This document shows positions 33,010 through 45,656 of a DNA stretch of 64,000 bases, piece by piece. Position numbers and translations under genes: made by a program. Source of the stretch: Dehalogenimonas etheniformans (GTDB taxonomy: Bacteria; Chloroflexota; Dehalococcoidia; Dehalococcoidales; Dehalococcoidaceae); NCBI RefSeq assembly GCF_014672715.2, contig NZ_CP058566.2, positions 1,922,001 through 1,986,000 of the forward strand, written 5' to 3'. Numbering within the stretch: position 1 is the stretch's first letter; each line of letters starts with the position of its first letter. The notes beneath the pieces are model-generated. The model made no database searches, had not been told where the DNA came from, and was given only the letters and a program-made list of their open reading frames with translations.

Positions 33010-35142
33010 CTAAAACGAGGAACGGCGTCGCAGGAGCAGGTAAACCCCGCCTCCGATGATGATTACGGCGAAGAATCCTATGGTGACCCAGGCCCAAACC
33101 GGGACGTCAGCCCAGGAGAAACCGACGACGAAGCTATTGGCGGTGCTCGGTGCCCCGACGTTGCCTGCCGCATCCGTGGCGATCACCCGCCAGTAGTACG
33201 GGGCTTTCTTTGAGACCGTCGGCAGTTTTTCGGCGTCGGTCATGGTGTAACTGGTCGTGGTCAGGCCGTCCTTTGAAACAATAAGGGTGGTGAAGTTGGC
33301 GTCGGTGGCGACTTCAAGTTTGTATGTCACCGGGTTGGACTGGTCGGTGACGGCACCCCAGGTGAAGGTAATCGGCTGCTTGGCCTTGATGCCGGACGCC
33401 GGTTCGGTCAGGGTCGGGCCGGCTGGGGCTGTTCCTTCCATGGTGAAGGTGAGTGGTTTGCCGTCTTGATCTTTATCTTTTGTAGTTTGGCCGTCGGATA
33501 CCGTCACCGGATGGGCGCCTTTGACGATTACCGGGGCTTTGAAGGCGACGGTGAAGGCTCCGGCGGTGTTGGATGTGCCGGTTGCCACTTGATTTCCTTC
33601 AAGTTTGACCGTGATGGCGGCGCCCGGTTTGAAACCGCTGCCGGTAACGGTAATGTCCTGGCCGACAAATCCCGGCGTCGCTGAGGTGTCCGGGGAGATG
33701 GCGGCGGTGATGGATGAAGTGAATACCGCCGTAGCCAGGTTGCCCAATCCGTCGGCGGCGATGATAGTATGCGCGCCTTCTACTGCGCCGGGCACGGTGA
33801 AGACCCCGCTGAATGTTCCGTTGGCTAGCACGGTGAGAGTCGCCGGAGCGGTCGGCAGGGCGATGGAATCATACGCCAGTGTTATCTGTCCGTTGGGGTA
33901 GAAGCCGGTGCCGTTGATGGTCACTTGGTCGCCGGTGGAACCTGTCGCGGCGCTGATGGTTATCTTTGCCGAAACAGTGAAATTCGCCGAGGCGAACATC
34001 GCGGCGTCGGTAGTCACTTTGGCGGTGATCACGTGGACTCCCGATGGGGAATTCGCGATAGTTAGGGTCTTTGAGAAGCTGCCTTTGGTATCAGTGGTGA
34101 CAGTCGTGCCGGTAAGCGCCGTGCCGTCGAATTCAAAACCGACCACGACGCTGTCGCCGAACCCGGTGCCGTTCACGGTGACGTTTGTGCCCACAGGACC
34201 GGAGGCGGGAGACAGGATAATCTTGGACTGGTTGATGGTGAAGGTCTTATAGGCAAAAACGGTGGTGTACGTGTTGTCTCTAACGTAAACTGTGTGCGGC
34301 CCCCGGACTGCCGGCGGGATGACGATAGCGGTGGCGGGGATCACCCCGGAAGAATTGGCGGCTACCGTTACCAGGGGGGTGCTCGTAAGGCTGTCAAAGA
34401 AAATACTGACCGAGCCCAGGGCGGTGAAACCGTCGGCGTTGACGGTGATCGTATCACCTACGGCTCCGGCTTCAGATGAAAGGCTGATGATCCTGGGTAA
34501 AATCGCCAGTTGGGTGTTGTAGGTATTGAGCGCCGTGTCGATGGCTGTCACGACATGGGGCACGGGCAAGTAAGGTGTTTGTGCCAGGGTAAATGGAACG
34601 CTGAACGCCCCGTTCGCGTTTTGAGCCGTGGTTACCTGTACCACGGGCGTCCCTGTCGTAATCGCAGTGGTGGCAAAATAGATGTTCACCGCAAGGTTGG
34701 CGCCGAAGCCGGTGCCGTTCACGGTAACCGCGGTACCCGCTGTCGCCGATATGGTTGATAATGTGATGAAAGGGGTGACTGCAAAAGTACCGACATTGAC
34801 GGGAGTCGGGTTGCCGTCGCCGAGTACCGCAATCTGGTAGTTGCCTTTGGGCACAACCGGAACCTGGAAGCTTCCAGTGACGATTCCGCCTGCGGGTATG
34901 GCTGTTGAAGCAACTACCGTTATGTTAATGGTGTTGTTCCCGGCGTCCAACCCGATGAAATGAACCGTGTAGTTGGTGCCGGTAACCTGAGTAGGTGATG
35001 TGCTGAAACTCACGAGGGTGCCCACCGGTCCTGTGGTCGGTGCCGAACTGACCGCGGACACCGGAGAAATAAACACACCTATCGCCAACGATGCGGCAAT
35101 GATGAGAGCAGGGAACAACTTGAACACCGTTCTAATCTTCAT
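33010..35142 (-). CDS. Surface protein with IPT/Ig-like repeats and C-terminal membrane anchor
   Basis: The 710-residue protein has a Sec signal peptide ending near VSA-V, about six copies of an IPT/Ig-like domain each starting with a phrase such as SATAGTAVTVNGTGFG, SGPVGTNVTVNGTGFG or TGSTGDQVTINGTGF, a fibronectin-III-like domain with PYYWRVIATDAAGN at about 620-640, and a C-terminal helix followed by RRRSSF. This C-terminal arrangement matches the S-layer-like protein at 7.2 kb, so the two probably share an anchoring mode. It is likely displayed on the cell surface. An extended -10 TGTTATAAT (hexamer 35198-35193) lies 50 bases upstream. Confidence 0.85.
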   Translation of the reverse strand: MKIRTVFKLFPALIIAASLAIGVFISPVSAVSSAPTTGPVGTLVSFSTSPTQVTGTNYTVHFIGLDAGNNTINITVVASTAIPAGGIVTGSFQVPVVPKGNYQIAVLGDGNPTPVNVGTFAVTPFITLSTISATAGTAVTVNGTGFGANLAVNIYFATTAITTGTPVVQVTTAQNANGAFSVPFTLAQTPYLPVPHVVTAIDTALNTYNTQLAILPRIISLSSEAGAVGDTITVNADGFTALGSVSIFFDSLTSTPLVTVAANSSGVIPATAIVIPPAVRGPHTVYVRDNTYTTVFAYKTFTINQSKIILSPASGPVGTNVTVNGTGFGDSVVVGFEFDGTALTGTTVTTDTKGSFSKTLTIANSPSGVHVITAKVTTDAAMFASANFTVSAKITISAATGSTGDQVTINGTGFYPNGQITLAYDSIALPTAPATLTVLANGTFSGVFTVPGAVEGAHTIIAADGLGNLATAVFTSSITAAISPDTSATPGFVGQDITVTGSGFKPGAAITVKLEGNQVATGTSNTAGAFTVAFKAPVIVKGAHPVTVSDGQTTKDKDQDGKPLTFTMEGTAPAGPTLTEPASGIKAKQPITFTWGAVTDQSNPVTYKLEVATDANFTTLIVSKDGLTTTSYTMTDAEKLPTVSKKAPYYWRVIATDAAGNVGAPSTANSFVVGFSWADVPVWAWVTIGFFAVIIIGGGVYLLLRRRSSF

Positions 35143-35463
35143 TTGCCTGCTTTATCCTCCTGACATTCCAAACGTATTCCCAATTTGCCGGTATTATAAC
35201 ACACGATTTTCCGACTGTATCCAATTTTCTTTAGAAATATTACGATAGTTTTCCCTTGCCCTCTATAACGTCCTTACCGGCAATCCGATAGCCGGATCGG
35301 CCCGGCAAAAAATATTTTTTTCGCAACCCGCCAAAAACGACACGAAACGCTTGACAGAACGCAGAACGCTCGTGCTATCATGTTAGCGCATCGGCCGGAC
35401 GTAACCGCCCGGTAAACCCCAACAAACCTGAAATGGCCCGGCTGGTGCAGAAAATTAGAACAT
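35143..35463. other. Divergent promoter region between surface protein and phage-like cassette
   Basis: There is no gene here. It holds the minus-strand extended -10 of the surface protein gene and the plus-strand promoter at 35351-35381. A run of T/A (AAAAAATATTTTTTT) lies at about 35307-35322. Confidence 0.6.
35351..35381 (+). promoter_or_regulatory. Promoter of the phage-like cassette
   Basis: TTGACA (35351-35356) and an extended -10 TGCTATCAT (hexamer TATCAT, 35376-35381) are separated by 19 bases. A leader of about 75 nt precedes the first gene. The spacing is long but the extended -10 compensates. Confidence 0.7.
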
Positions 35464-35850
35464 ATGAGCGTTTATTTACAAATGCATGGAGACGGCGAGG
35501 ATCTCGATGAAGATCCGGCAGACCTTGGCGCGCCGTGCGAAAACGCGCCTGCGGATGACGACCCCCTCCCCGAATACACCCACTACCGGGACGAGGGCTG
35601 CGGTCTTTCCAACTCCTGCCTCAACTGCCCCTTTCCCCGGTGCGTCTACGAGGTGCGCGGCGGCATGCGGCGCTATGAGAAAGACAAAAGCGCCCGGGAG
35701 ATCATCTTTCAGTACGGCCGCGGATTTAGCGCCAAGCAGATCGCCCGGATGCTGGATGAAAACCTGAGGACGGTCCAGCGGGTGATCAAGGAATTCAAAC
35801 GTGACACTGACATCGATACCGAAAATGGAAGGGAGACATGGGATGAATAG
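35464..35850 (+). CDS. Cys-motif helix-turn-helix protein at the head of the phage-like cassette
   Basis: The 128-residue protein has an acidic N-terminus, four cysteines at 46, 52, 55 and 60 (GCGLSNSCLNCPFPRC) that could bind zinc, and a helix-turn-helix at about 78-110 (FSAKQIARMLDENLRTVQRVIKEF). It stands where a small terminase subunit or a cassette regulator would be expected. I cannot tell which; the short HTH and missing oligomerisation domain favour a regulator. Its stop overlaps the portal start by eight bases. The start is the first ATG after the promoter; no strong ribosome binding site is seen. Confidence 0.7.
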   Translation: MSVYLQMHGDGEDLDEDPADLGAPCENAPADDDPLPEYTHYRDEGCGLSNSCLNCPFPRCVYEVRGGMRRYEKDKSAREIIFQYGRGFSAKQIARMLDENLRTVQRVIKEFKRDTDIDTENGRETWDE

Positions 35851-37222
35851 TTTTGATTTCAATTCGGCCGCCAACGACAGGCGCCGGCGCTACCGTGAGC
35901 TGCTGGACTTTTATCACGGCCGTCATTGGGCGGGCACTCGCCGCGAAGAAAAGCGCCTGACATTCAATTACGCCGCGGCGGTGGTGGACAAACTGACCGC
36001 CTACCTGGTGGGCGGGCTTTCAGTGAAGGCCGTGTCCCATGATGCCTCGGCCGAAACGGTTTTGAAGGCTCAGCGATTGCTGGAAAAGACGGGCGTCGGC
36101 AACAATCTCGACCGGTTGGACTACGAGACGGAGATCGATGCCGCTGTGCTGGGTGACGGCTGCTACCGCCTCGGTTGGGATGCCGCCTCGGGGACGGTCC
36201 GAGTTACCTCGCCTGATATCGCCTCTGTCGACGTGGGATACGCCATCGATGGGGTCGCCGTCGAAAAGGTCACCCTGTCATACACCGTTTTCAAAGCTGT
36301 AGCGATTCAAGCCTGGGGCTTTAATGGTGGGACAGGCATCTTGCCTGCCGGCTCAACTATTCCCGGTGGGATCGGCATCCTGCCCGTCGATTCGGACAAC
36401 GTCGATGTCGTCGAAACCTGGACCACCGCTGAATACCAGGTCGCCTGCAACGGCGAGGTCGTGACGGCCAGTCCGAACCCCTACGGCTTCATCCCGTTCA
36501 TCGTCTTCCCCAACCTCCCCAAGCCAAAATCCCCGTGGGGCATTTCCGATCTTGAGCCGCTGGTCGAGGTACAGAGGGAACTGAACCGGTCTACTTCGCA
36601 GCTTTCACGCATCCTCGAGTTGTCCGGCAATCCCATTGCCGTGTTGGAGAACGTCGAATCGTCGCAGGATATCGCCGTCGCCCCCGGCGCGGTATGGCAT
36701 ATCCCGGAGGAAGCCAAAGCTTACCTGCTCGACCTATTGCAGGGTGGCGGAGCCCAGCTCCATTTGAATTACATCGACCTACTTTTCCGCATGCTGCACG
36801 ACCTTTCGGAAATGCCGCGGGCGGCTTTCTGCGGTATGGGTCGGGACGTCTCCGGCGTGGCGCTGGAGCTTGAGCTTCAACCCCTCCTCCACCGCATCTG
36901 GCGCAAACGCCTCATCCGCACCGGCGTTTACCGCAGGCGAGCCGAGATGATGCTGGCGCTTTATGCCAAATACCTCGGCGAGAACTTTGACGGCGTCGGC
37001 ATTGAGGTCACCTGGGCGCCGGTACTGCCGCGGGACATCGCCGCCACGGTAGCCTCGGAACAGACCCTCGTCCAGAGTGGCATTCACTCGCGAAAGCGGG
37101 CCATGGCAGGGCTAGGCATCGCCGACCCCGACAAGGAATTCGCCGATTGGCTGGCGGAACGGGAATCAATTTTGAAGATGAACCGGAGCAACAACCTGAA
37201 AGCGGGAGAGAGCGCGGTATAG
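35843..37222 (+). CDS. Phage portal protein (SPP1 gp6-like)
   Basis: The 459-residue protein resembles SPP1-type portals, the dodecameric ring at one capsid vertex through which DNA passes. Typical are the start with YRELLDFYHGRHW, the FNYAAAVVDKLTAYLVG segment, EVQRELNRSTSQLSRILELSGNP near residue 245, and the stem region with ALELELQPLLHRIWRKR. The start at 35843 follows GGAAGGGAG. At about residues 161-182 there are two in-frame copies of a dispersed palindromic repeat encoding GTGILP and GIGILP, so this loop is repeat-derived. No large terminase gene precedes it. Confidence 0.85.
   Translation: MNSFDFNSAANDRRRRYRELLDFYHGRHWAGTRREEKRLTFNYAAAVVDKLTAYLVGGLSVKAVSHDASAETVLKAQRLLEKTGVGNNLDRLDYETEIDAAVLGDGCYRLGWDAASGTVRVTSPDIASVDVGYAIDGVAVEKVTLSYTVFKAVAIQAWGFNGGTGILPAGSTIPGGIGILPVDSDNVDVVETWTTAEYQVACNGEVVTASPNPYGFIPFIVFPNLPKPKSPWGISDLEPLVEVQRELNRSTSQLSRILELSGNPIAVLENVESSQDIAVAPGAVWHIPEEAKAYLLDLLQGGGAQLHLNYIDLLFRMLHDLSEMPRAAFCGMGRDVSGVALELELQPLLHRIWRKRLIRTGVYRRRAEMMLALYAKYLGENFDGVGIEVTWAPVLPRDIAATVASEQTLVQSGIHSRKRAMAGLGIADPDKEFADWLAERESILKMNRSNNLKAGESAV
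36325..36389. repeat. Two copies of palindromic repeat family D inside the portal gene
   Basis: GGTGGGACAGGCATCTTGCC (from 36325) and GGTGGGATCGGCATCCTGCC (from 36365) are two copies of one hairpin-forming element, 40 bases apart. Both are in the same frame and are translated as G-TGILPA and G-IGILPV. Peptides of this GILPV type arise from the same repeat in other bacterial genomes. Confidence 0.75.
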
Positions 37223-37252
37223 GTGACGGCGAAGGCCATCAACACTCCAACT

Positions 37253-37283
37253 TCCCTTGCCCCGGGTGGGAGAGGGGAGCACA
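37253..37283. repeat. Dispersed repeat family C between portal and scaffold genes
   Basis: TTCCCTTGCCCCGGGTGGGA is followed by GAGGGGAGCAC. It fills the spacer before the AAGGAG ribosome binding site of the next gene. Confidence 0.6.
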
Positions 37284-37305
37284 TTCATATTAGTCAAGGA
37301 GAAAC

Positions 37306-37737
37306 ATGGAAACCGAACAGGAAATCACAACCGAATGTAGGGACACGGCGTGCCGTGTCCGGGAAAATGAAGCGGCGCCGACACCCGATACCGAGATAAC
37401 AGCCAAGCTCATCGCCCGGGAGGCGGAGGTGGCGAAACTTTCTCAACAACTCGCCGAGAAAGATGATGTTATCGGGCGGCTGAACGCCAGCCTCAATGCT
37501 GCGGTTGCCGCCTATCGAGGAACAACTGTAACTCTGCACCGCGACCTGCCGGAAGAACTCATCGAAGGCGATAGCATTGCCGCCGTCGATGAATCTATCA
37601 AGAAAGCGATGTCGCTGGTCGCCCGGGTGAAATCTACGATGGCTACCACCGCCCCGCCCCTCGTCGCCGCAGGGAGGTCACGATCATCCGAGGGATTGTC
37701 CACGGTCGACAAGATCATGCTGGGTCTTTCCCATTGA
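37306..37737 (+). CDS. Coiled-coil scaffold-like protein of the phage-like cassette
   Basis: The 143-residue acidic protein has a coiled coil at about 30-65 (AREAEVAKLSQQLAEKDDVIGRLNASL) and a conserved-looking segment DLPEELIEGDSIAAVDESIKKAMSLVARVK. It lies between portal and major capsid genes, where scaffolding proteins are normally found, and its size and coil fit. Residues 11-20 (CRDTACRVRE) are encoded by a copy of palindromic repeat family A, so the N-terminus was changed by repeat insertion without breaking the frame. Function as scaffold is inferred from position. Confidence 0.65.
   Translation: METEQEITTECRDTACRVRENEAAPTPDTEITAKLIAREAEVAKLSQQLAEKDDVIGRLNASLNAAVAAYRGTTVTLHRDLPEELIEGDSIAAVDESIKKAMSLVARVKSTMATTAPPLVAAGRSRSSEGLSTVDKIMLGLSH
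37341..37360. repeat. Palindromic repeat family A, copy 4, inside a coding frame
   Basis: GGACACGGCGTGCCGTGTCC is preceded by GTAG as in the intergenic copies and is read in frame as RDTACRV in the scaffold-like gene. Confidence 0.85.
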
Positions 37738-37773
37738 AGACTGATAACGCTTTGGGTGGTGGTGCCCCGGTCT

Positions 37774-37812
37774 AGAGGTTCCAGCGAGCGGGGTTTGCGA
37801 GCTGGAACCTCT
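37774..37812 (+). promoter_or_regulatory. Large hairpin upstream of the major capsid gene
   Basis: AGAGGTTCCAGC (37774-37785) pairs with GCTGGAACCTCT (37801-37812), a perfect 12-bp stem with a 15-base loop. Flanking GGGTGGT near 37755 and ACCACCC near 37819 could extend it. It is followed by an A run rather than T, so on the plus strand it is more likely an mRNA stability or processing element than a terminator. Confidence 0.5.
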
Positions 37813-37883
37813 TAAAAAACCACCCCTTTCTACCGCGAGCATCGGAAGGGAAGGGGTAGGGGATAGGCACCGCATAATTAAAG

Positions 37884-37912
37884 CTGACAGCTGATAGCTG
37901 ACAGCTCTGTAA
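37884..37912. repeat. Dispersed repeat family E (GCTGACAGCTGATAGCTG)
   Basis: AGCTGACAGCTGATAGCTGA is a self-similar repeat of GCTGAYAGCT words. Another copy lies at 39007-39031 and a relative (ACTGTCAACTGTTAACTGTC) at about 41923-41953. It directly precedes the capsid gene ribosome binding site. Confidence 0.65.
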
Positions 37913-37927
37913 AGGAGACAACTGAAT

Positions 37928-38848
37928 ATGGCAATCACATTAACCGAGGCAGCTAAATTATCCAACGACCTGCTGAAACAGGGCGTCATTGAGACCATCA
38001 TCAAGGACTCCCCCGTTCTCCGCCGCCTGCCCTTCATCGAGATCACCGGCAACGGCTTGACCTACAACCAGGAGAAAACCCTGCCGGATATCGCCTTCTA
38101 CGATGTCGGCGACACCTGGACGGAGAGCACGCCGACTTTCGAGCAGAAGACCGCAACTTTGAAGATCATGGGCGGCGACGCCGACGTGGACAACTTCTTG
38201 AAAACCACCCGCTCGAACGTCCAGGACCTGCAAACGGCGATCATCCAGCAGAAGGCCAAGGCGCTCAAGGACAAGTTCGAGCAGACTTTCATCTACGGCG
38301 ATGAGAGCGGCAACGCCAAGGAGTTCGACGGCCTGCGCAAACTGATCGACACCACCACCGCCGGTGCCCAGGTCATCGCCATGGGCGCCGCCGGCGCCAC
38401 CCTCACCCTGGACAAGCTCGATGAGCTGATCGACGCGGTAAAAGGCGGCAAGCCCGACCTGCTCATCATGAGCCGCCGCACACGGCGCAAGCTTAACTCG
38501 CTGCTGCGGGCATCGGGCGCTCTTCTCGAAACCGACCGGGACGCCTTCGGCAATTCCGTCCAGTACTGGAACGGCGTGGCTATCGGCGTCGATGACTGGA
38601 TGCTGGATACCCACGTCGTAGCTTCGAGCGTTGAGACCGCCACCACCGGCGGCCTGTGCTCCACCATTTACGCCGTGCAGTTGGGTGAAGGGGCCCTTGC
38701 CGGCTTGTCCGCGCCGGGCATGGTCCAGGTGGAAAACGTAGGGGCGCTGGAGGACAAGGACGCCAGCCGGACTAGGGTGAAGTGGTACGCATCGTTGGCG
38801 CTGTTCTCGTCGGTCAAGGCTGCCGCACTGATAGGGGTGAAGGACTAG
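37928..38848 (+). CDS. Phage major capsid protein (HK97-fold type)
   Basis: The 306-residue protein looks like the major capsid protein of siphophage-like particles. The N-terminus (MAITLTEAAKLSNDLLKQGVIETI) is followed by a long beta-rich E-loop-like region (SPVLRRLPFIEITGNGLTYN, EKTLPDIAFYDVGDTW), an alpha-helical spine around residues 100-125 (NVQDLQTAIIQQKAKALKDKFEQTFIYGD in part) and an A-domain with PDLLIMSRRTRRKLNSLLRASG. No N-terminal scaffold or protease domain is fused. AAAGGAG lies before the ATG. Size and order in the cassette support the call; an encapsulin is less likely because portal and neck genes flank it. Confidence 0.85.
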   Translation: MAITLTEAAKLSNDLLKQGVIETIIKDSPVLRRLPFIEITGNGLTYNQEKTLPDIAFYDVGDTWTESTPTFEQKTATLKIMGGDADVDNFLKTTRSNVQDLQTAIIQQKAKALKDKFEQTFIYGDESGNAKEFDGLRKLIDTTTAGAQVIAMGAAGATLTLDKLDELIDAVKGGKPDLLIMSRRTRRKLNSLLRASGALLETDRDAFGNSVQYWNGVAIGVDDWMLDTHVVASSVETATTGGLCSTIYAVQLGEGALAGLSAPGMVQVENVGALEDKDASRTRVKWYASLALFSSVKAAALIGVKD

Positions 38849-38880
38849 TGTTAAACCTCCCCGCCCGAACCCTCCCATTA

Positions 38881-39036
38881 CTGTCTTTGCGAGGACTGCC
38901 TGACGGCAGTCCGTGGCAATCGTCCTCGAATAGTACACCTTCTCAACTCCTCTCCCCCAAGGGGAGAGGGTAGGGAGAGGGTGGTTCCCTGAAAACTGAA
39001 AACTGATGGCTGACAGCTGATAGCTGAAAGCTAAAA
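38881..39036. repeat. Three dispersed repeat families in a row between capsid and neck genes
   Basis: Family B (GTCTTTGCGAGGACTGCCTG, ending GAATAGTACACC) is followed by family C (CTCCTCTCCCCCAAGGGGAG) and then family E (ACTGAAAACTGATGGCTGAC, AGCTGATAGCTGAAAGCT). The spacer of 199 bases is almost wholly repeat DNA, yet the next gene keeps AAAAGGAG. Confidence 0.75.
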
Positions 39037-39047
39037 GGAGAAAAACA

Positions 39048-39680
39048 ATGAACCTTACAGAAATGCGCGATATGGTCCGCCGCGACCTTAAAGACACCAT
39101 ACCTGCCAACTACCGCTGGACCGATGACACGCTCGACCGCCACCTCCGCCGCGCTGTTGCCGAGTACTCCTCGGCGGCGCCGCGGCAGATGAAGCAGACC
39201 TTCATCTCCACGTTCGGTTCGATGGACCTTGATATCTCATCGCTGGCCGACCGCACCTCGGTCATGGCGGTGGAATACCCCGTCGATCTGAAACCCCGGA
39301 AGTTCCGCCCTTTCACCGTCTGGGCTGACCGGCTGACCCTGGAGAACTGCGCTCCGCCGGACGGTGGCGAGATGGCCGTTTACTACGGCATGGCACACAC
39401 CCTCGACGCCGCCGGCACGACGCTGCCTTCCCAGCATTTCGATCTCATCGCCACCGGCGCCGCATCCTATGCTGCCATCGAATGGGCAGCCTATGCCGTC
39501 AACCGGATCAACTCAGGCTCCAACGCGGCCTCGGACTATTTCCGCTGGGGCAAGGAGCGGATGGGCATCTTCCGCGATGAAATCCGGCGGCTGGCGCGGA
39601 AGAACTCCTTCCGCAGCGGCAAATTCTTCAAGCCGGTCGAAACGTACATCTGCCCGGCGGAGACGGATTTCTGGAAATAA
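39048..39680 (+). CDS. Phage head-tail connector/neck-like protein
   Basis: The 210-residue protein follows the major capsid gene, the normal place for the head-tail adaptor. The start NLTEMRDMVRRDLKD, the WTDDTLDRHLRRAVAEYSSAAP helix and the later AASYAAIEWAAYAVNRIN helix are typical of this adaptor group. No catalytic motif is present. AAAGGAG is positioned well before ATG. The specific protein family could not be named by eye. Confidence 0.65.
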   Translation: MNLTEMRDMVRRDLKDTIPANYRWTDDTLDRHLRRAVAEYSSAAPRQMKQTFISTFGSMDLDISSLADRTSVMAVEYPVDLKPRKFRPFTVWADRLTLENCAPPDGGEMAVYYGMAHTLDAAGTTLPSQHFDLIATGAASYAAIEWAAYAVNRINSGSNAASDYFRWGKERMGIFRDEIRRLARKNSFRSGKFFKPVETYICPAETDFWK

Positions 39681-39691
39681 CAAGGAGATTT

Positions 39692-39937
39692 ATGGATTTC
39701 TATCGTTTACTCTGGTCTCATCTCGGAGGCCGACCATGGACATATATCCTGCGCGACCTATGGCACAGGTTCGAATGGCTGTGGATCATCGGACTGCTGC
39801 TCAGCGGCTATCTTATCGGCCGGAACGGCTTCGACGAACTGTTGGGCTGGCTCATCGCCTTCAACCTCGGCTACGTCGCCGGACACCTTTTCTGGGGCAA
39901 GGACTACGTCCCCGGCCAGAAAGCCGATGCCGAATAA
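39692..39937 (+). CDS. Small Trp-rich membrane protein of the phage-like cassette
   Basis: The 81-residue protein has two hydrophobic helices (about 25-43 and 49-67) after a Trp-rich amphipathic start (LWSHLGGRPWTYILRDLWHRFEWLW). AAGGAG precedes it, and it begins 11 bases after the neck gene. A holin-like role is possible from size and topology, but no lysin gene is nearby, so membrane attachment of the particle is an equal possibility. Confidence 0.6.
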   Translation: MDFYRLLWSHLGGRPWTYILRDLWHRFEWLWIIGLLLSGYLIGRNGFDELLGWLIAFNLGYVAGHLFWGKDYVPGQKADAE

Positions 39938-39955
39938 AAATCTCGATAAACGTAG

Positions 39956-40043
39956 CCGTTCGTGGTGAGCTTGTCGAATCCATGAACGACGGTAAGGCCG
40001 AAATCTTGTTCACCCTTCGACAGGCTCAGGGCGAACGGAGTTG
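39956..40043. repeat. Dispersed repeat family F (CCGTTCGTGGTGAGC ... CCTTCGACAGGCTCAGGGC)
   Basis: CCGTTCGTGGTGAGCTTGTC (from 39956) and CACCCTTCGACAGGCTCAGG (from 40012) are two related, oppositely oriented elements that are common in many bacterial genomes. They fill the spacer before the tail/fibre gene. Confidence 0.75.
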
Positions 40044-40086
40044 GTAGAGATGATTATTGGTTGTTTTTTATTCAGAGGAGAAACCG

Positions 40087-41859
40087 ATGCATGAATTGTC
40101 ACCCTCACTCCTCGCCGCCCAGCAATCGCCCAGCCGGGAGGGATTCGTTTCATTCGTTTTACACAAGCATCCCGCCTGGAAAATACTCTGCACCGGAACC
40201 GAAGAAGACTGCCTACACGCCGCGACTTTTGCCGGCGACGGCTCAATCATTCGAGCGAGATTGGGTAACGTGGCCGACTCCCGCAAACTCTACTTCCAGC
40301 GTATAGCCGCGCCGGATGAGACCAGCAACTTCTCCGTTTGGACGTACACCGGCGAGTACAATGCCGTAGCCATTGCCGTCGCCACCCTGGGCGCCGAAGT
40401 CTCCATCCTGTGGATCAAGAGTGATCGCTCGATTAGGCGCATCAAGTCCACGGACTACGGCGCAACCTTTGGTGCAGCCGAGCTTGTAGACTACTCGCCG
40501 ACGACGTCCTGCGGCGGCTTGTCCATGGCCTATAAACCGAATGGCGACCTTGTGGTGTTCTACGCCGACCAGGCGACCCTCTATGTCAAAGAAGAGTTAG
40601 ATAATGTATGGCAACCCAGGACCGCCTGGAACAAGACCACAGACGCTCTCACCGGCATTTCCTGCGCCTATGACGGCGATTTCAACCTGGTAATCACCGG
40701 TTGCGATACTTCCGGCAACTGTCGCCTCTGGTCTCTGGTCTACGGCGATGGATCGGCTCTCCCGGCTGGGACGTGGGGTGACCTCAAGGAGATCGCCACC
40801 TCACCCGCCGCCGAAGGTTTTGAGTTCTGCTCGGCGTTCCTCGATAAATCAGATGTCTACCACTGCGCCTACGTCGAGAAGTTCACCGGCGACGAGGCAT
40901 ATTCCCGCGTTTACCTGACTTCAACCGTTCCCGGCGCATCTTTCGACGCGTGTCTGTGGACGGAACCTCAGCCGATGGACATCACCGGAGATTACGGCGT
41001 ATCCATTGCCCATTCCACAGATTCATCGTGGCTTTGTTCAGCCAACTCGGTGCGACGGGCTCCTGTCGATGCTTGCGAGATCGATTTGACCTCCACCCTC
41101 ATCGCCGCTCGATACGATCTCACCGAGACCGGCGGCAAAGCTGTTATTGAACTGGACAACTCAAATCTAGGCCCGTCTCCCGCCGCCCCCGGCGATGAGG
41201 TCATCGTCAGCCCCGGCTACATCACCGACGACGGCGCCGAGACGAGCGAGGGACTGTCATTCACCATCAGCCGCATCGAGAGATCAAACGGCAAGATTCT
41301 CATCGAGGCTTCGGACGGCTGGCAGAAACTGAAGGGCTGGCGGGCTAAAAACCTTTTCCGCTGGAACGCATCTGCCTCGATAACCAGCATCAAGGACATC
41401 ATCGCCTGGGTGGTGGGGAGGGTGGGGCTGCGGCTGGAAGTTGTCTTGGCCTCGGACACTATCGAGACACTCTGCCCGGACTTCTGCTTGAATCCCGGCG
41501 CTGATGGTTTTTCGGCGGTCCGGCGCCTGCTATCGATGGTCCCCGACCGGCTCTTCATCGAGGGTAGCGCAGCTTATCTCAAAAATCCGGTTGCCGATGA
41601 GGGTCCAGGCTACGCCTACGGCTCTGAACATGGATTCGCTGCTTGCCTGCTTGCTGAATCCAGTATTGTTTCCACCTGCGAGATCGCTACCCCGAACAAC
41701 TGCGGCCAACAGCTCTATGACGTCATTGAGGTCACCGACGAGGCTTCCGGCCTCTCCGCCGCCCGCTACCGGGTGACTGGCATCGCCCTGGACTACCGGC
41801 CTATGAGCGGCAAATACAAGATGAAATTATCACTCTGTCTTTGCGAGGACTTGCCTTGA
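40087..41859 (+). CDS. Large tail/fibre-like structural protein
   Basis: The 590-residue protein starts at 40087, after GAGGAG. The N-terminal half (about 30-320) shows repeated beta-propeller-like blades (DRSIRRIKSTDYGATF, GGLSMAYKPNGDLVVFYAD, ISCAYDGDFNLVITG). The C-terminal half (about 340-590) has features of a tail-tip or hub protein, such as DLTSTLIAARYDLTETGGKA, VSPGYIT and ITSIKDIIAWVVGRVGLRLE. The last eight residues (CLCEDLP) and the stop come from a copy of repeat family B, so the original C-terminus was replaced. Attachment to a host surface is inferred from architecture only. Confidence 0.65.
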   Translation: MHELSPSLLAAQQSPSREGFVSFVLHKHPAWKILCTGTEEDCLHAATFAGDGSIIRARLGNVADSRKLYFQRIAAPDETSNFSVWTYTGEYNAVAIAVATLGAEVSILWIKSDRSIRRIKSTDYGATFGAAELVDYSPTTSCGGLSMAYKPNGDLVVFYADQATLYVKEELDNVWQPRTAWNKTTDALTGISCAYDGDFNLVITGCDTSGNCRLWSLVYGDGSALPAGTWGDLKEIATSPAAEGFEFCSAFLDKSDVYHCAYVEKFTGDEAYSRVYLTSTVPGASFDACLWTEPQPMDITGDYGVSIAHSTDSSWLCSANSVRRAPVDACEIDLTSTLIAARYDLTETGGKAVIELDNSNLGPSPAAPGDEVIVSPGYITDDGAETSEGLSFTISRIERSNGKILIEASDGWQKLKGWRAKNLFRWNASASITSIKDIIAWVVGRVGLRLEVVLASDTIETLCPDFCLNPGADGFSAVRRLLSMVPDRLFIEGSAAYLKNPVADEGPGYAYGSEHGFAACLLAESSIVSTCEIATPNNCGQQLYDVIEVTDEASGLSAARYRVTGIALDYRPMSGKYKMKLSLCLCEDLP

Positions 41860-41956
41860 ATAATATCCCCTCGCCCGCTTACGGCGGGAGAGGGCTAGGG
41901 TGAGGGTTTGCACAACCATGAAGACTGTCAACTGTTAACTGTCTACTGTCAACTAA
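41836..41956. repeat. Repeat families B, C and E between the last two cassette genes
   Basis: CTGTCTTTGCGAGGACTTGC overlaps the end of the tail gene. CCCCTCGCCCGCTTACGGCG with GGAGAGGGCTAGGGTGAGGG follows, and then ACTGTCAACTGTTAACTGTC. Confidence 0.75.
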
Positions 41957-41964
41957 GGAGAACA

Positions 41965-42174
41965 ATGAATATCAAACAGGCGTTACTCAAAAGCTTCAAT
42001 ACCGCCACTTTCATCGCCACGGTCCAACTGGTCGGTTCATCCCAGGCTTACCTTGAAAATATCACGGTAGCCCGCAACATTCCGACGGCAGAAATGACCG
42101 CGGGGCGTGCGGTGGCTGTCCTTTTCTTCGATGAATTCAGGGCGAACGATGCGGTGGTGGCGGCGGTGTGGTAG
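41965..42174 (+). CDS. Small terminal protein of the phage-like cassette
   Basis: The 69-residue protein (MNIKQALLKSFNTATFIATV...) has a compact predicted beta-strand-rich body with conserved-looking ITVARNIPTAEM and AVLFFDEF segments. AAGGAG lies seven bases before the ATG at 41965; an earlier in-frame start would read through repeat DNA. No family is recognised. It is the last gene of the cassette before base composition turns AT-rich. Confidence 0.6.
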   Translation: MNIKQALLKSFNTATFIATVQLVGSSQAYLENITVARNIPTAEMTAGRAVAVLFFDEFRANDAVVAAVW

Positions 42175-42218
42175 TTTTTTAGATTATTGACATCAAGGAT
42201 TACAATAAAGAAAAGAAG

Positions 42219-42398
42219 ATGAAAATTGTCATTGGAATTCTACTAGGTTGGTTGGTGCTTGATATAGCACTGTTGTTTATTCACCCTTCTTTTCTTAATC
42301 AACAAATTTGGTTTTGGACGTTTCACCCTTCGATACCATCCACTGCTTTAGTTATCACGCTTTTAGTACGTGCCGGACGGCCGAAAAAAGTTACCTGA
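42219..42398 (+). CDS. Small membrane protein, tandem copy 1 (59 residues)
   Basis: The frame begins MKIVIGILLGWLVLD and has two hydrophobic stretches (about 2-21 and 42-51). The first 30 bases and the region upstream (TTACAATA...AGAAG) nearly repeat those of the gene at 42456, so the pair is a tandem duplication that has diverged after the first helix. AAGAAG serves as a weak ribosome binding site. Function unknown. Confidence 0.55.
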   Translation: MKIVIGILLGWLVLDIALLFIHPSFLNQQIWFWTFHPSIPSTALVITLLVRAGRPKKVT

Positions 42399-42455
42399 AA
42401 TCTTTCTTATCTTGGTGTTGTGGAATTGACCCTGGTTTACAATAGAGATTAGAAG

Positions 42456-42647
42456 ATGAAAATTGTCATCGGAATTCTACTGGCTTGGTTGGCTATCATT
42501 CTTATCATCGGATTTTCGGGTGTTCCTCTAAAAGCGGGATCCGCGTTTGCCGATATTTGGATGTATTTTGGGCAGCCTCTAATCCCGATCGTCGGTCTGG
42601 TTATAGCGGTTGCGGTGAGGGCGCTCCTAGAAAAAAAGTCCGCATAA
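42456..42647 (+). CDS. Small membrane protein, tandem copy 2 (63 residues)
   Basis: MKIVIGILLAWLAIILIIGF forms the first helix; a second spans about 42-55, followed by a charged end (RALLEKKSA). It shares its start and upstream sequence with the gene at 42219. Function unknown. Confidence 0.6.
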   Translation: MKIVIGILLAWLAIILIIGFSGVPLKAGSAFADIWMYFGQPLIPIVGLVIAVAVRALLEKKSA

Positions 42648-43079: not shown

Positions 43080-43508
43080 TTGAAAATATCTTCGGTCGTC
43101 CTAACCATACTTGGCTTGCTCTCTACATTTTTCTCGTGGGTTGTCGTTAGTTTCAGTGAAAACGACGGTGATATTACCGTCACTGTTCCCACTCCAAATA
43201 TCTATTACGAGATCGCTTTGGTTGTGATTACCTTGTTGATCATTACGATAGCAATTGGACAATTATCCAAGAAAATGTATCTCTCCAAAATTCAACTAGT
43301 GTTTGGATTGTGCACTGGATTATTGACCTTTATTATGATCCAAGAAATCAATTCGCCCTATTTTTATTTAAGCGGACGTTTCCCTTTAGTCTATGCTTTA
43401 CGTTCCGGTGGATTGTTGGTGTTTCTCGTTAGCTTAATTCAATTTTTAAATGCAAGACAGAAAGAACGAGCTTTGGAACAGGAATCAGGTAAACGATTAT
43501 CCCCGTAA
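43080..43508 (+). CDS. Hypothetical membrane protein (142 residues)
   Basis: Four hydrophobic segments are visible (about 5-25, 45-62, 73-90 and 105-123), with a charged C-terminal tail ([18 protein letters not shown]). TTG at 43080 is the likely start. No good ribosome binding site is seen. The last 12 bases overlap the end of the DUF2200 fragment on the other strand, so the C-terminus may be newly formed. Confidence 0.5.
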
Positions 43509-43697
43509 AATCTTATCCATTGCTCTTCCATTTGCTAACTCATCGACCAGCTTATCCAGATATCGAATCTCCCGCATCGTCGGTTCTTTAATATCCTCAA
43601 CCCTGATGCCGCAGATCAGATCCTGTATAAGCGTGCGGTAGGGGTTGGGGTGGGGGAGTGATAAAGGAGATTGCTTTCTAAAAAGTATAAATGACAC
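43497..43697 (-). pseudogene. C-terminal fragment of a DUF2200-family gene
   Basis: The last 49 residues ([20 protein letters not shown]...) match the C-terminal part of the intact DUF2200 protein at 45306-45656 at about 80 percent of positions, including the motif CGIRVEDI and [15 protein letters not shown]. The first 65 or so residues of the family are missing and are replaced by unrelated sequence. It is a broken partial duplicate. Confidence 0.75.
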
Positions 43698-45305: not shown

Positions 45306-45656
45306 TTATTTCCACAAAATCTTCTCCATCGCTTTTCCCTTCGCCAGCTCATCGACCAGTTTGTCCAGATAGCGGATTTCCCGCATTATCGGTTCTTCGA
45401 TATCCTCCACCCGGATACCGCAGATCAGGCCTTTAATCAGGGTTCGGGAGGGGTTGAGGCGAGGAGCCTTGGCAAAGAAGGTCTCAAGACTAGTGCCGTT
45501 TCCGAGTAACGCTTCCAGCTCCGCCTGGCTATAACCGGTCAACCAATGGATGATCTCATCGACTTCCGTCTTTGTCCGTCCCTTTCTCTCGGCCTTGGCA
45601 ATGTAATGCGGATACACGTTGGCGACAGGCATGGTATAGAGATTGTGTTTGGCCAT
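45306..45656 (-). CDS. DUF2200-family protein
   Basis: The 116-residue protein begins [29 protein letters not shown] and has the [11 protein letters not shown] and [17 protein letters not shown] motifs of the DUF2200 family. It is cytoplasmic and helical; its biochemical role is not known. GGGGAT is upstream of the ATG. A C-terminal fragment of a second copy lies at 43497-43697 in the same orientation. Confidence 0.85.

Follow-up and report, generated by a model that had tools for sequence, protein, structure and literature searches.

A conserved phage-derived structural cassette in Dehalococcoidia, likely part of a domesticated, GTA-like particle system

Known gene transfer agents (GTAs) are limited to few lineages, their bioinformatic detection outside the alphaproteobacteria is an open problem, and their genes have been described as dispersed yet retained (PMC11841831). 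The RcGTA type of Rhodobacterales and Caulobacter has vertically kept head and packaging genes without replication genes, occupies several loci and has a TerS without detectable DNA-binding domain (PMC11841831). The system of Dehalococcoidia reported here resembles it in its vertically kept head and packaging genes, in having no replication genes beside them and in its several loci; no HTH family was detected in the four of its TerS-type proteins that were scanned. It differs in phylum, in a cassette without recognised tail tube, tape measure or protease, and in its SU10-like adaptor, lectin hub and recA-linked LexA-like boxes. The profile of its major capsid protein (MCP) found no PDB chain at E 0.01, a search that bears only indirectly on homology to the RcGTA structural genes. 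Brachyspira VSH-1, Desulfovibrio Dd1, Bartonella BaGTA and Methanococcus VTA share with it independent phage origins, dispersed genes and presumed host-chromosome cargo; unlike it, they are experimentally supported. Phages with a phrog_212 capsid (YuA/Ab18-like Pseudomonas phages, SSU5, Rowa) have an MCP about 40% identical over its full length, but are complete phages of 43-103 kb among the records listed. Phage SU10 has an adaptor of the same family as that of the cassette, and for the cassette portal no more than 8 phage records were hit, with 21-24% identity. The Dehalococcoides prophage of Waller et al. 2012, known here through its citation in PMC3462421, comes from a related host group, carries phage-type genes and is reported to be activated by starvation; as far as that account goes it is siphovirus-like, whereas of the locus described here only remnants remain in probable Dehalococcoides genomes. 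No description of the present system was found in the literature searched, and the 2026 Dehalogenimonas pangenome paper mentions neither capsids nor transfer agents.

The window analysed is a stretch of 64,000 nt from the closed, 2.07 Mb chromosome of Dehalogenimonas etheniformans. An earlier note on this DNA had described an eight-gene structural cassette with all frames open, a promoter in front of it, and ribosome binding sites before all genes but the first. The ORF check of the window found the eight ORFs (35464 to 42174) all present and open, with domain matches for portal, MCP and neck (Table 1). The promoter, TTGACA-N19-TATCAT, was also there and is conserved in two relatives, and the coiled-coil, MCP, adaptor, hub and last genes each have a Shine-Dalgarno-like AGGAG stretch in front, which the first gene lacks.

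Table 1. Features of the cassette, its promoter and neighbour (window coordinates) and of the distant terminase genes (genome coordinates)
Feature	Coordinates	Strand	Basis
IPT/TIG-repeat surface-type protein, divergent neighbour	33010..35142	-	TIG 1.2e-11; tie to cassette uncertain
Cassette promoter	35308..35381	+	upstream box CCAAAAACGACACGAAACG, -35 TTGACA (35351), operator AGAACGCTCGTGCT (35363-35376), -10 TATCAT (35376-35381)
Multi-Cys (probable Zn) and HTH protein, first gene, putative regulator	35464..35850	+	conserved Cys/HTH residues
Portal, SPP1 Gp6-like	35843..37222	+	PF05133 9.9e-21, phrog_64 2.1e-34
Coiled-coil protein, probable scaffold	37306..37737	+	position directly 5' of MCP
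Major capsid protein (MCP), HK97-type/HK97-fold	37928..38848	+	phrog_212 1.7e-73, PF05065 4.6e-11
Head-tail adaptor (neck), SU10-type	39048..39680	+	PF24175 SU10_adaptor 3.2e-7, above cut-off
Small hydrophobic protein, possibly membrane	39692..39937	+	genus-conserved; no Pfam/PHROG family
Receptor-binding hub, 590 aa: N-terminal lectin/sialidase-like beta-propeller and C-terminal gp27/Mu gp44-type baseplate hub (by inference)	40087..41859	+	AlphaFold model and Foldseek
OB-fold protein, 69 aa, probable spike/hub tip	41965..42174	+	AlphaFold model pLDDT 93.7
TerL genes, intact copies	680,854-682,206 and 431,343-432,695 of genome		search of genome

The Cys and HTH residues of the first protein are invariant or nearly so across 25 aligned sequences, its HTH_23 match being below cut-off in the Pfam/PHROG scan. 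The same scan gave no family match above cut-off for the coiled-coil protein, whose gene is, in almost every cassette locus, the one immediately before the MCP gene. The AlphaFold model of the hub (pLDDT 89.5) forms a beta-propeller of the fucose-lectin/sialidase kind over residues 38-330 (Z 26 to fucose lectins in the structure comparison), and Foldseek matched the model to the hubs of Bas63, PhiTE, P1 and Mu (E 1e-8 to 2e-11) and to tail proteins in BFVD; the C-terminal remainder is by inference from the model the part that would correspond to the matched gp27/Mu gp44-type baseplate hub. The best Foldseek match of the OB-fold protein was the P2 gpV spike, a weak one (E 5.5e-3) with a generic OB fold. 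A PDB sequence search for hub relatives was discarded, as it returned unrelated seed proteins and none that was convincing. The idea that the small hydrophobic protein, or the proteins that take its place elsewhere (clusters 8, 9, 19, from other families), might be holins was likewise dropped for lack of any holin family match; in a simple hydropathy scan, no 19-residue segment of the window's protein exceeded 1.5.

The divergent IPT/TIG gene stands beside the cassette in many relatives, and an IPT/TIG surface-type gene was also seen near TerL at loci where TerL is detached from the cassette (L090, L091, L097, L098). It is possibly a functional partner of the TerL/cassette system, an association that remains uncertain. 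The slot between MCP and adaptor varies (L037-L050), holding decoration-, LamG-lectin- or tail-fibre-like genes in other families and being empty in D. etheniformans.

The earlier note had also listed genes as missing, and the Pfam/PHROG scan of the cassette and ten flanking ORFs agreed in finding no terminase, protease, tape measure, integrase or lysin. For the terminase this holds only locally: a search of the genome, which the note had proposed, found two intact TerS-TerL pairs about 1.3 and 1.5 Mb from the cassette, along with a remnant at 609,332. No replication or integration genes were seen in the cassette or the ten flanking ORFs, the rest of the genome being unannotated, and the contiguous integrase, replication and lysis set expected of a temperate phage is absent from the same interval. 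The TerL proteins match Terminase_6C, and in both copies we observed intact Walker A (RQGGKNE), Walker B (DEAQD) and GTPW motifs and intact RNase H-type nuclease motifs (D in GLDFGGEG, DATG, HDD). Among four TerS-type proteins scanned no HTH family was detected (structure not predicted).

In relatives TerS-TerL lies beside or near the cassette. TerL was detected in 46 of 50 chosen genomes, portal in 28 and hub in 27 of 30. Some lineages have the modules spread over up to 200 kb of closed chromosome, still retained, as in genome G152 (hub 475,663, portal 561,915, MCP 674,471, TerL 677,873), and some hold the MCP apart from the portal and hub genes (L055-L057). This scatter fits the GTA pattern, since dispersed but retained genes have been described for GTAs (PMC11841831).

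The MCP is found in 170 of 393 genomes sampled from the class, essentially one copy each, and in 7 of the 8 of the genus, without stops among the matches listed. Matches inside the genus have 75-84% identity and those outside it mostly 52-77%. All eight cassette genes have dN/dS between 0.03 and 0.24 in the closest pair, G083/G189 (MCP 0.066, small hydrophobic protein 0.027), hence purifying selection acts on all of them. The arrangement of the genes is the same throughout the order and across families, and rpsU-yqeY lies 3' of the cassette in at least eleven of 80 named contigs. Within the order, distances of MCP, portal, hub, adaptor, coiled-coil protein and TerL correlate with those of RpoB (Mantel rho 0.60-0.83), as do those of the HTH gene at 0.37 (permutation p 0.0005-0.0035). 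The weaker correlation of TerL within the genus (0.39, p 0.08) fits its having several copies. Other Chloroflexota classes carry the MCP at 46-56% identity, some with portal, adaptor and TerL nearby, so the origin of the cassette may be older than the class.

The cassette and the distant terminase have one common promoter/operator, AGAAC-N4-GT[G/T]CTAT, which is also found before recA. The default promoter scan with 16-18-nt spacers did not detect the cassette promoter because its spacer is 19 nt; the sequence TTGACAGAACGCAGAACGCTCGTGCTATCAT is kept nearly base for base before the cassette in the two relatives (L031/L032). The operator core, G[A/T]AC-N3-Y-GTGCTAT, also lies 5' of TerS-TerL pairs elsewhere in the same genomes. 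Of 74 independent regions upstream of cassettes across the order, 54 contain it (shuffles 0.7, reversed control 0), as do 14 of 25 regions upstream of TerS (shuffles 0.1). Of 66 sites within 1.4 Mb of sequence around cassettes, 55 lie 5' of the HTH gene or TerS, a zone that makes up 1.2% of strand-positions; it should be noted that related loci are not independent, hence the formal p-value makes the enrichment look stronger than it is. In other orders and other Chloroflexota classes the box is AGAACATATGTTCT or similar, a LexA-type palindrome known as the Gram-positive LexA/DinR box, and the canonical GAACN4GTTC was seen in other orders. Such boxes stand before detached pieces (coiled-coil-MCP, TerL, portal), with 18 of 58 sites lying in 4.8% of the positions (binomial p 1e-10), a count in which some palindromic sites were scored on both strands and two loci overlap.

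The D. etheniformans genome holds 30 copies of the core (reversed control pattern 0). Their neighbours include recA and dnaE by Pfam and, by reading of the sequence, clpC-, glyA- and pilT-like genes and several TerS copies and remnants. The box precedes recA in two species (D. etheniformans and G189) and a mutS-like gene in sister species G200. Four other genomes of the genus have an altered cassette promoter, and in G068 and in G146 the cassette and TerS of the one genome have a changed upstream sequence in common. We read this pattern as predicted co-regulation of the dispersed parts. The repressor at the shared operator is probably LexA, an inference made without a located LexA gene or binding data, and the particle system is probably under SOS control, for which there are no expression or binding data. 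Many non-SOS genes share the recA-linked box; as there are about 30 genomic sites, several before housekeeping genes, it is not excluded that the box belongs to a promoter type of general use and is not specific to the SOS response. The HTH protein of the first gene as sole reader of the operator is a weakened candidate, since G049 (probable Dehalococcoides, L084) keeps the box before TerS despite loss of most of the cassette. An HTH-like ORF still scores there, so the test is not conclusive.

Some further observations concern the promoters. About 30 near-identical modules of roughly 75 bp (CCAAAAACGACACGAAACGCTTGACA...GWACNNNYGTGCTATAAT) are dispersed in the D. etheniformans genome (e.g. L332-L360), several with a TerS start or TerS-like remnant 6-7 nt downstream, which looks like the spread and later decay of a TerS-TerL unit. 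The ATG so near the -10 in these modules suggests leaderless mRNAs. A second half-box, TTAGAACATATGAGC, overlaps the start codon of the first cassette gene (window 35452-35470), and L036 has a fuller box, AGAACTAATGTGCT, near the start of that gene. A canonical-type box, GTACATTTGTTCTATTTT, lies about 31 bp from TerS copies in divergent orientation (L338, L350), followed in L338 by an ORF of 422 aa of unknown family.

The cassette has been lost in some relatives. Sister species G200 (RpoB 97%) keeps both flanks of the locus, with about 0.7 kb where D. etheniformans has about 10 kb; genome searches found no MCP, portal or hub, and an intact TerS-TerL is retained. In the sister genus (probably Dehalococcoides) TerS-TerL persists in all three genomes studied; at the rpsU-yqeY locus two have a truncated portal and hub and the third little or nothing of the cassette. 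Given the clean loss in G200 and these mere remnants, the cassette is dispensable in some lineages. In other cases part of it stays behind, since portal still matches in 4 of 18 members of the order with little or no MCP signal. The sister-genus remnants at rpsU-yqeY imply that the cassette predates the split, for which 496 million years has been used as calibration (PMC13390414).

We consider it likely that the cassette supplies the structural half of a domesticated, GTA-like DNA-packaging particle passed on by vertical descent, production, cargo and transfer being inferred. The earlier note had offered such a particle, with packaging genes elsewhere, beside a remnant kept by chance, and the first is the one supported by selection, single-copy retention, synteny, host-tracking and a TerS-TerL with the same operator. 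The GTA traits of phage-derived structural and packaging genes, of long-term vertical inheritance under purifying selection (with lineage losses), of several chromosomal loci (TerL about 1.3 and 1.5 Mb off; G152 modules over 200 kb) and, for the cassette and ten flanking ORFs, of no replication or integration genes alongside are met. An ordinary prophage remnant, retained by chance and decaying, would account for the clean loss in the sister species, the reduced remnants in the sister genus and the absence of integrase, replication and lysis genes from the cassette and ten flanking ORFs. It has only the faintest chance against eight open frames at dN/dS 0.03-0.24, a locus and gene order shared across families and the class-wide presence of the MCP (170/393). 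The note had expected dN/dS near 1, or sister strains without the cassette at this locus, if it were decaying: dN/dS was well below 1 in the closest pair and the same gene order recurred across families, whereas one sister species does lack the cassette, a lineage-specific loss given that the remaining members of the genus and a large part of the order retain it. Judged from purifying selection, a class-wide intact MCP, deep synteny and RpoB-tracking divergence, the cassette is not a decaying prophage, and a domesticated particle that already existed when the sister genus split off would be the best explanation of these sequences.

Divergence that tracks the host, conserved host neighbours, a mostly single copy per genome and modules scattered in closed genomes also leave very little room for an active temperate phage family that repeatedly infects the class and gives each genome its own prophage. 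Capsid relatives about 40% identical do exist in phages and 80 IMG/VR contigs carry the cassette (L179-L258), but these are only 4-16 kb long and 168 of their 225 other ORFs have homologues in host loci. As most of their other ORFs match the host, these 'viral' contigs are probably misclassified host DNA, which suggests that host genes make up many of the short 'viral' contigs in IMG/VR. Portal and TerL together imply DNA packaging, and both are retained, TerL as a complete motor; no tailocin sheath or tube was recognised. Both points count against a domesticated particle with another job than gene transfer, such as a capsid compartment, a killing particle or a device for export after DNA damage, for which we see a small chance. 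That reading would suit a hub, spike and lectin without tail tube, an MCP that stands apart from portal and hub genes in some lineages, and the operator tie to recA. The system is thus classed as GTA-like, not as a proven GTA. To the fuller proposal, of a Chloroflexota GTA of independent origin, older than the sister-genus split, SOS-controlled, near-tailless (capsid, portal, adaptor, lectin hub, OB spike) and suited to wall-less hosts, we give an even chance.

As to how the GTA-like particle might work, we infer that upon DNA damage a LexA-type repressor would leave the boxes at the promoters of the cassette and the separate TerS-TerL operons. Coiled-coil scaffold, MCP and portal would form a procapsid, into which TerL would pack host DNA via the portal; since no DNA-binding domain was detected in TerS, packaging is proposed to be unspecific. 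The SU10-type adaptor would seal the head and bear a very short tail of hub and OB-fold spike, presenting the lectin propeller for cell binding. No tail-tube or tape-measure gene was recognised, hence the particle may be tailless or use unrecognised genes. Dehalogenimonas is reported to lack peptidoglycan (PMC10284905), so that release would not need a lysin. What the sequences themselves show is the identity and conservation of the genes, the selection on them, their co-divergence with the host, the intact TerL motifs and the shared operator; LexA as the repressor, assembly, DNA cargo, release and delivery are all inferred. If true, a GTA-like system would be present class-wide in Dehalococcoidia, organohalide-respiring bacteria included, it would be a candidate route for the movement of dehalogenase genes, and the conserved operator would predict a means of induction.

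Two small repeats were seen 3' of the cassette. Two adjacent small membrane-type genes have starts 88% identical (42197-42255 and 42434-42492), and a DUF2200 gene further downstream has a partial copy (43497-43655 and 45306-45464).
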